A DNA stretch of 49,773 bases from a virus: positions 1 through 49,773 of the IMG/VR virus record IMGVR_UViG_3300022540_000248. One strand, written 5' to 3'. The position numbers and the translations under genes were made by a program. Shown here piece by piece: positions 2,243-29,821 of the stretch (position 1 is the stretch's first letter; the number at the start of each line of letters is the position of its first letter). Below the pieces are notes generated by a model. It worked only from the letters and a program-made list of their open reading frames with translations. It did no database searches and was not told where the DNA came from.

Positions 2243-3408
2243 TGGAGTTCGGCATAACAACAACAGGATTCAACGTAAAAACATTTCAAGAGATATTAGA
2301 CAGCATGGAAACAACTGGTAAGCAAGCTGAAAACTTTGGTGAAGATTTCGATTTAAGAGATGGAACACCACAGAAACAATTCTTCAGTGTAACCGCTGAA
2401 GAATTAGCTAGTTTATGGGAACAGTTAGGAAATGTATATGCACAAGGTCAATTTGATCAGGCTGAAGGTGTAGGTTTAGATTACTTAACCAAGAGAATCG
2501 GTGTCAGACGTAACCAAGCATTAAAGGCAGGACAATTAACTGATGAACCTGTATCATTCTTAGGAACTAACGGAACGATCATACCTATTGATTTCTTAGG
2601 AGAAACAGAAAGCGGAATTCAGTTTAAAACTAAAGCAGCAGGAACTATCACTGGTGGAACGGTTGATATTAATGTTGAAGCATTATTGACAGGAACGGAT
2701 GGAAATGTATCATCAGGAACAATAATCGTCATAACGAACCCATTAGCAGGATTAGACAGCATAACAAATGCTAGTGCGTTCACATCGGGTACAAATCAAG
2801 AAACTGATGAAGAGTTAAGAGCAAGAGCGCAGGAATCAATCGCATTATTAGGACGTTCTACATCGAATTCTATCAGAACTACATTGCTTGCAACAGCTGG
2901 TGTAACCGATGCACTTGTTCAGGAGAATGATACTTTTGCAACAGTTGGTGGAATACCACCAAAAGCCATTAGTCCAGTTGTGTTGGGAGGTTCTGATAAC
3001 GATGTTGCAACTAGTATATTCAATACTAAGGCTGGTGGAATTCAATCATTCGGAGCTGAAACGGTAGGTTTTGTTGATGATTCAGGAAACAGCATAACAA
3101 TCGGATTCGAAAGACCAACTACTATTGATGTGTGGATTGATGCTGTAGTAACCAAGACCTCTGATTATCCTGTAAATGGTGACGATCAAGTTAAGGCTAT
3201 CATAGTTGATTACATTAATGGATTACAGATAAGTGATGATGTAATATTGTTTACAATGTCAAGTTTGATAGGTGCAGGAGTTCCAGGTATAACTAATTTG
3301 GTACTTGAATCATCAACAGATGATATTACTTATTTACCAGCTGATGTTACTATTGGAGCAACGGAAAAAGCTCAAACAGATAATACCAAGGTTGTGGTTA
3401 CATCATGA
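2242..3408 (+). CDS. Baseplate J-like protein
   Basis: The 388-residue protein matches the Mu gp47/P2 gpJ/XkdT family in length, order and motifs. The N-terminal region describes a fibre/wedge domain (DGTPQKQFFSVTAEELASLWEQ). The middle has the repeated hydrophobic strands and ETDEELRARAQESI typical of baseplate J, and a C-terminal domain follows from about 300. It assembles the wedge and anchors tail fibres. ATG 2242 overlaps the gp25 stop. The following gene begins inside its last codons (ATGA), so wedge proteins are translationally coupled. Confidence 0.92.
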   Translation: MEFGITTTGFNVKTFQEILDSMETTGKQAENFGEDFDLRDGTPQKQFFSVTAEELASLWEQLGNVYAQGQFDQAEGVGLDYLTKRIGVRRNQALKAGQLTDEPVSFLGTNGTIIPIDFLGETESGIQFKTKAAGTITGGTVDINVEALLTGTDGNVSSGTIIVITNPLAGLDSITNASAFTSGTNQETDEELRARAQESIALLGRSTSNSIRTTLLATAGVTDALVQENDTFATVGGIPPKAISPVVLGGSDNDVATSIFNTKAGGIQSFGAETVGFVDDSGNSITIGFERPTTIDVWIDAVVTKTSDYPVNGDDQVKAIIVDYINGLQISDDVILFTMSSLIGAGVPGITNLVLESSTDDITYLPADVTIGATEKAQTDNTKVVVTS

Positions 3409-19171: not shown

Positions 19172-19900
19172 ATGTTAACTCATATTAGTTTATTCAGCGG
19201 TGCAGTTGATGGTATAGGAATAGCTGCTGAAATGGCTGGATTTAAAAATGTAATATTGTGTGAAAAAGATGAGTTTTGTTTGAAGGTTTTAAAGAAAAAC
19301 AATCCTGATTCAATTATATACGATGATGTTGTAACTATGCCTATACTACCGAGCGCAACATTATTGAGTGCTGGAATACCATGTCAAGAACATGCTTCCG
19401 TAAATAAAAAAGGGAATGGTGATGATTTTGAATGGAACCATACAAGAAAAAGAATCGGTGAATCTAACCCGAAGTGGGTTATTATTGAAAATGTTAACGG
19501 AATCAAAAACACAATCCACGAACAAATATGCTGTGAATTGGAAGAAGACGGTTACGAAGTCGAAACGTATAATATACCGGCTGTCGCTGTCGGTGCGCAC
19601 CATCAAAGGTACAGGATTTTTATTGTTGGGAACTCCAGCAGCGAGCCAATTACACAAGCCGATAAGACCATTGGCACCATCGGAGAAAAGTGGGAAACAT
19701 GGGATAATGACATGCGGTCAGCTTGGGGATCTATTTCCAGCACGTATTGGGGAACACATAAACCCCCAGTATGCGGAGTGGTTAATGGGATTGCAGAAAG
19801 ATTTTACAAAGATAGAATGAAATCTATAGGTAACTGCGTAGTACCTCAACAGGTGTTGCCGATATTAAAAGCAATAGCATTAATAGAAAAGATATATTAA
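19172..19900 (+). CDS. DNA (cytosine-5) methyltransferase, orphan
   Basis: The 242-residue protein has motif I LFSGAVDGIG (7-16), motif IV AGIPCQEH with catalytic Cys71, motif VI ENV (106-108), motif VIII HHQRYRIFIV, and motifs IX/X VVNGIAERF and SIGNCVVPQQ. The target-recognition part is very short, so the whole enzyme is smaller than typical Dcm-type enzymes of 300-400 residues. No restriction enzyme is adjacent. It probably shields phage DNA from host restriction or marks its own DNA. Confidence 0.92.
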   Translation: MLTHISLFSGAVDGIGIAAEMAGFKNVILCEKDEFCLKVLKKNNPDSIIYDDVVTMPILPSATLLSAGIPCQEHASVNKKGNGDDFEWNHTRKRIGESNPKWVIIENVNGIKNTIHEQICCELEEDGYEVETYNIPAVAVGAHHQRYRIFIVGNSSSEPITQADKTIGTIGEKWETWDNDMRSAWGSISSTYWGTHKPPVCGVVNGIAERFYKDRMKSIGNCVVPQQVLPILKAIALIEKIY

Positions 19901-29421: not shown

Positions 29422-29437
29422 AAATGGAGTGATAGGT

Positions 29438-29821
29438 ATGTTTGCAGAATTAATAAACAAAACAATATTAGAAGTTAAAATGCCTGATGATGAAACTTTA
29501 ATATTTCAAACAGACGAAGGTAAATTCGTTTATGAGGCATACGGAGATTGATGTTCTGAAAGTTGGATAGAACACATATTCAACTTAGATAGCATCGTGA
29601 ATGCTAAAATTAATAAGATTAATGAAACATCAGAAACTAGAGATGGCACTAGACAAGAAGTAGACGAAGTAGACTTCATAACCTTCGTAACTGATAAAGG
29701 TTATTTCGACATAGAATTCAGGAATAGTAGTAATGGTTATTATGGTGGGAGCATGGACTTGAACAAAGATGCTTCGGATGATTTTGTAATAGTGGAAGAC
29801 TTGATGATAGAAATGCATTAA
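29438..29821 (+). CDS. DUF7448-like protein with in-frame UGA at a conserved Cys position
   Basis: Read through the TGA at 29549-29551, the frame gives 127 residues. It begins FAELINKTILEVKM, continues GKFVYEAYGD-[UGA]-CSESWIEH, and ends with TDKGYFDIEFRNSSNGYYGG. As I recall it, the DUF7448 family has GDCCSESW at this point, so UGA replaces the first Cys of the pair. No other lesion is seen in about 90 codons downstream, and an independent restart at GTG 29597 has no ribosome site. A 6-bp stem-loop lies right after the UGA (29552-29557 with 29569-29574). Options are selenocysteine, read-through, or a fresh nonsense mutation. Confidence 0.7.

Follow-up and report, generated by a model that had tools for sequence, protein, structure and literature searches.

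An in-frame UGA predicted to encode selenocysteine in a DUF7448 gene of an uncultivated tailed phage

The window, a 49,773-nt stretch of viral DNA analysed here as a whole, contains a phage gene of the DUF7448 family with a UGA inside its reading frame. The question raised by this locus is how the UGA is read. The preliminary description had named three options, namely selenocysteine (Sec), programmed read-through and a single nonsense mutation. It had also stated that the UGA interrupts an otherwise intact DUF7448 gene, at a position where the family has GDCC, and that the FRNSSNGYYGG ending is intact after the UGA.

The DUF7448 gene and its phage

Translation of the plus strand showed an ATG start at 29438, a single internal TGA and a terminal TAA at 29819-29821; the product reads MFAELINK...EAYGD before the UGA and CSESW...FRNSSNGYYGG...EMH after it. 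The read-through protein matched Pfam DUF7448 (PF24240) at 5e-22, with 78.6 bits against a curated cut-off of 27, and PHROG 2650 at 2e-29. A genome-level family search for DUF7448 recovered the same gene at 3.5e-21 (71.2 bits), flagged as having '1 TGA' inside. The 37 residues before the UGA gave weak matches on their own (0.078 in Pfam and 1.6e-5 in PHROGs), and the part after the UGA still matched DUF7448 on its own at 1e-12, so that constraint is kept there. As for other signs of a pseudogene, neither a second stop nor a frameshift was found in 29438-29821. The family assignment and the interruption of an otherwise intact gene were thus confirmed, and translation and alignment bore out the intact ending. 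The features of the locus are listed in Table 1.

Table 1. Features of the UGA-containing gene and its surroundings, in window coordinates
Feature	Position	Strand	Description
Probable ribosome-binding site, GGAG	29427..29430	+	7 nt 5' of the start codon; from the sequence
DUF7448 gene with one UGA read through	29438..29821	+	127 aa including the predicted Sec38; translation, Pfam PF24240, PHROG 2650
UGA, predicted selenocysteine codon	29549..29551	+	First Cys of the D-C-C motif; family alignment
Outer helix, GAUGUU with AGCAUC, lengthening the hairpin	29550..29596	+	-14.2 kcal/mol in all
Cys39 (TGT), predicted partner of Sec38	29552..29554	+	Invariant in 63/63 aligned members
Bacterial-SECIS-like hairpin	29560..29586	+	10-bp stem AAGUUGGAUA/UAUUCAACUU (arms 29560-29569/29577-29586), loop GAACACA 29570-29576, -8.1 kcal/mol
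74-aa GTG ORF, without the D-U-C motif	29597..29821	+	Expected call where a gene caller takes the UGA as a stop
FRNSSNGYY, second conserved family motif, intact 3' of the UGA	29717..29743	+	S98, N99, G100, Y101 and Y102 invariant

The window belongs to a tailed phage with a GC content of 33%, which carries a terminase, a portal, a capsid, a baseplate J protein and a Gram-positive-type replisome organiser. The nearest matches to its terminase, at 41%, were a human faecal phage and one Bacilli genome, followed by phages of Streptococcus, Fusobacterium and Clostridioides difficile. The host is likely to be a member of the Firmicutes, judged from terminase matches of which the best has an identity of only about 41%. 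Peptide patterns found no close relatives of the window gene in viral contigs, megablast of the middle 20 kb of the window against phages gave no match, and PADLOC returned nothing. DUF7448 was not found in 391 genomes of the class Clostridia and 395 genomes of the phylum Desulfobacterota, a search result that does not amount to proof of absence; thus, these genomes provided no prophage copy from which a host could be named. At 19172-19900 of the window, a C-5 cytosine methyltransferase match reached only half-way through its Pfam profile (positions 2-168 of 324), and this gene may be truncated or split.

The UGA column among the homologues

The alignment showed that D37-C38-C39 was invariant in all nine isolate-phage homologues, which come from phages of Sinorhizobium, Bacillus, Mycobacterium, Pseudomonas, Acinetobacter, Providencia and Streptomyces. 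The GDCC motif given in the preliminary description was correct, and the TGA of the window takes the place of the first Cys. All the isolate homologues read carry Cys at this column and none has UGA; the UGA members are all uncultivated contigs. Aligning DUF7448 homologues at the UGA column had been proposed as a check in the preliminary description, and the result was a near-invariant Cys with UGA in seven other lineages. The codon at this column was TGC or TGT in 72 of the 81 distinct family members collected, TGA in eight and an Arg codon in one. The last of these, L090 (3591-3947), has Arg (CGT) in place of the first Cys of D-C-C, and the first Cys is thus not strictly essential in every member. 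In a 485-kb uncultured phage (L202, LR745208.1:173495-175059), the DUF7448 gene is split over two frames near the CC motif. This split is probably a frameshift in the assembly, and L202 gives no evidence on UGA.

The only scan free of UGA-seeking bias looked through a viral collection for a motif far from the column, FRNx[ST]NGYYxG, and no UGA was demanded at the column. Among the 67 loci obtained, the column held Cys nearly everywhere it was covered, with one UGA at the column (L031) and one stop elsewhere (L092). In L092 (903-934 and upstream; record G003:C1:34077-34400) the Cys is intact and an in-frame TAA follows about 25 residues later. In contrast to the UGA cases, this TAA is a plain nonsense mutation or an assembly error. 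The targeted scans joined TGA-TGY at the column to the downstream NGYY motif; UGA was demanded, and they are hence biased towards UGA cases. Beyond L031, they yielded one YYxG member, L126, together with six YYSE contigs (L161, L162, L163, L164, L165 and L166), and all six of the latter were true homologues.

The seven other lineages with UGA at the same column (L031, L126, L161 (= L162), L163, L164, L165 and L166) lie on unrelated viral contigs. Each of L031, L126 and L161-L166 scored above the Pfam DUF7448 cut-off and contained exactly one internal TGA. L161 and L162 are the same phage from two metagenomes. Their independent assemblies were identical around the gene and 99.99% identical over 9.4 kb, and this agreement argues against a sequencing or base-call error. 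The tree showed the UGA members scattered among the Cys members. Parsimony gave approximately seven changes, of which at least three were forced by well-supported branches. Matched pattern scans for UGA at the neighbouring second Cys, performed in the YYxG group only, turned up nine stretches, none of which was a true homologue. The UGA pattern matched 27 stretches in GTDB genomes, and no homologue with an in-frame UGA was among them. When the nine records were searched for further hidden UGA genes, 69 mechanical candidates emerged, none of which was convincing besides DUF7448. The UGA gene of the AT-rich record G009 is closely followed by ten clustered tRNA genes (L187:9543-12710), and the Cys homologues of this gene in E. 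coli T5-like phages are likewise situated inside a tRNA cluster.

The downstream hairpin and the reading of the UGA

A stem-loop at 29552-29574, right after the UGA, had been pointed out in the preliminary description. This stem-loop exists, but it is weak (-3.6 kcal/mol). It is mutually exclusive with the hairpin at 29560-29586, which is the more stable of the two. The window structure had a z of -3.5 against dinucleotide shuffles. According to a review of prokaryotic selenoproteins published in 2026 (PMC13188914), the bacterial SECIS (bSECIS) model has a loop of 3-9 nt, a stem of 4-16 bp, a G in loop position 1 or 2, a spacing of 16-37 nt and an energy of at most -7.5 kcal/mol. Checking the region after the UGA against a bacterial SECIS model, as had been suggested earlier, showed that the hairpin at 29560-29586 agrees with all four published criteria: its loop has 7 nt with G as the first base, its stem has 10 bp, its spacing is 18 nt after the UGA, and its energy is -8.1 kcal/mol. 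Among 100 synonymous recodings of the window, none agreed with the same values. The Rfam scan of the window at the gathering threshold returned nothing.

The same comparison was made across the family. Under a strict reading of the published values, four of the eight UGA genes passed, as did 1 of the 71 Cys homologues (Fisher p = 2e-4). The poor fits to these values were L031, which has no loop G, and L165, whose loop is longer than the model allows; borderline cases in energy or spacing were L161 and L166. When the loop-G rule was dropped, a hairpin was in place in 8/8 UGA genes. The mean of the best hairpin energy was then -8.1 kcal/mol in the UGA genes and -2.2 kcal/mol in the 71 Cys homologues (p = 1e-5), and the mean z against synonymous recodings was -2.95 and -0.37, respectively. 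The loop of L126 is AGGU, which is similar to the known loop of E. coli fdhF; the SelB of E. coli is selective as to the SECIS it accepts.

A recent nonsense mutation would make the gene a fresh pseudogene in the window phage and its hairpin a product of chance. The change from Cys to UGA takes one base, and the window record taken alone is compatible with such an event; the TAA at another column of L092 also shows that broken copies occur in the family. However, seven other divergent lineages also have UGA as this codon, with the second half intact in all of them, hairpins that agree with the SECIS values are enriched in the UGA genes only, and the adjacent Cys was never UGA in the scans (YYxG pattern). 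We consider a nonsense mutation very unlikely. Stable structures 3' of a UGA are also found at read-through sites, and in programmed or leaky read-through the UGA would be decoded by an ordinary tRNA (a Trp or Cys-type suppressor) with the hairpin merely stimulating. Read-through would also fit the finding that the phage records contain no tRNA-Sec over the Rfam cut-off. The site itself speaks otherwise: the UGA specifically replaces a near-invariant Cys and not an inter-domain linker, and ordinary read-through would give a residue other than Cys at this column. In addition, the loop G and the spacing match the SelB-recognised bSECIS model, and ARAGORN found no suppressor tRNA with a UCA anticodon. 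Read-through by an ordinary tRNA thus has an even slimmer chance. With neither a tRNA-Sec nor a UCA suppressor in the phage records, decoding would rest on the host.

Phages with a changed genetic code exist, and the 5.7-kb piece containing L163 looked badly covered under code 11, as would fit a code in which UGA is a general sense codon. Yet the full 113-kb record of this phage (G007) reaches a coding coverage of 0.92 under code 11. The coverage was 0.84-0.92 in eight of the nine records with a UGA gene; the exception was G009, an AT-rich fragment that bears tRNA genes, with 0.62. Taking TGA as sense brought little or no gain over the whole records (n = 9). Each of the nine records uses TGA as an ordinary stop, which closes many called genes. 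In the window it terminates 11 of the 64 called ORFs, and the TGA at 3406-3408 is the genuine stop of another gene, in line with the earlier remark that UGA is a normal stop elsewhere here and that the code has not changed generally. A general code change is refuted by these results, and its probability is negligible.

The near-invariant Cys, the recurrence of UGA in its place in seven other lineages and the SECIS-like hairpins that accompany the UGA genes single out selenocysteine from the three options. Based on this sequence evidence, we estimate a probability of roughly 0.9 that UGA 29549-29551 is a selenocysteine codon, and that 29438-29821 encodes a DUF7448 phage selenoprotein of 127 residues decoded by the host. 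During infection, the SelB of the host, with Sec-tRNA, would recognise the hairpin at 29560-29586 just 3' of the UGA. Sec would be inserted at the place that the first D-C-C Cys holds in homologues of the Cys type, which would give D-Sec-Cys. The Sec machinery (SelA/B/C/D) would be supplied by the host. Elsewhere in this phage, UGA ends genes in the normal way.

Possible function and comparison with known systems

AlphaFold2 on 63 family members gave a confident all-beta model (pLDDT 91.8, pTM 0.81), in which Sec38 is located after the strand 28-36 and before the strand 41-48. A fold search against solved structures found none with E < 0.001. The search of a viral library (BFVD) returned DUF7448-type proteins only, some of them from giant viruses. 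DUF7448-like folds were present in Mimivirus (A0A2L2DKK4), Tupanvirus (A0A6N1NSC7), Hokovirus (A0A1V0SFG4) and Pithovirus (A0A481Z4D9), which extends the phage domain to giant viruses of eukaryotes.

The Cys-form gene of Bacillus Herelleviridae lies between the genes of ribonucleotide reductase subunits, and once directly upstream of a thioredoxin gene. In mycobacteriophages the DUF7448 gene comes after DNA polymerase I. The gene that follows in the L031 record is deaminase-like, as judged by its HAELNA and TCNEC motifs only. The DUF7448 protein is presumed to be a thiol/selenol redox protein, and we infer that its neighbouring Sec and Cys residues have a redox role, which may lie in the reduction of nucleotides. 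We speculate, tentatively and at less than even odds, that DUF7448 is the first bacteriophage selenoprotein family, a redox family with several Cys/Sec switches. Sec may make it a faster catalyst in selenium-using hosts, where, for instance, it might serve ribonucleotide reduction as a reductant, and infection would then depend on host selenium.

The selenoproteins catalogued so far come from bacteria, archaea, eukaryotes and a few animal viruses. If the selenocysteine reading is correct, the 21st amino acid is also read by phages with borrowed machinery, and standard phage gene callers split such genes in half. The Cys/Sec exchange would pinpoint which residue is catalytic in this widespread phage domain without a named function, and some phages would be predicted to depend on host selenium. 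In the open-access journal literature, we found neither a phage selenoprotein nor a paper that gives DUF7448 by name; the only link between phages and Sec was a predicted tRNA-Sec in Basilisk-like Bacillus phages (PMC6145125). In the available text of the 2026 review (PMC13188914), DUF7448 and the Sec-Cys order in D-U-C were not met, and the words 'phage' and 'virus' are absent.

The window gene resembles bacterial selenoproteins, with E. coli fdhF as the model, in that an in-frame UGA is aligned with the Cys of homologues. Its hairpin is like the in-gene bSECIS of bacteria: it lies directly 3' of the UGA at a spacing of 18 nt, with an early loop G, a 10-bp stem and an energy below -7.5 kcal/mol. 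Unlike bacterial selenoproteins, the predicted one comes from a phage in whose genome no Sec machinery was found. Compared with PF24240 and PHROG 2650, the gene matches the whole domain and keeps the second Cys and the NGYY motif, whereas its first D-C-C Cys is encoded by UGA. Basilisk-like phages have a predicted tRNA-Sec without a selenoprotein, whereas the records with a UGA gene have no tRNA-Sec over the cut-off. The glutathione peroxidases of molluscum contagiosum virus and fowlpox virus contain viral UGA-encoded Sec and depend on the host machinery (PMC8310308). These are captured cellular genes with a eukaryotic SECIS, whereas DUF7448 is a phage-borne family without a named function, with a bacterial-type SECIS predicted directly after the UGA. 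The mode of decoding is already known; the novelty would lie in its use by a phage gene family, with repeated exchange between Cys and Sec.
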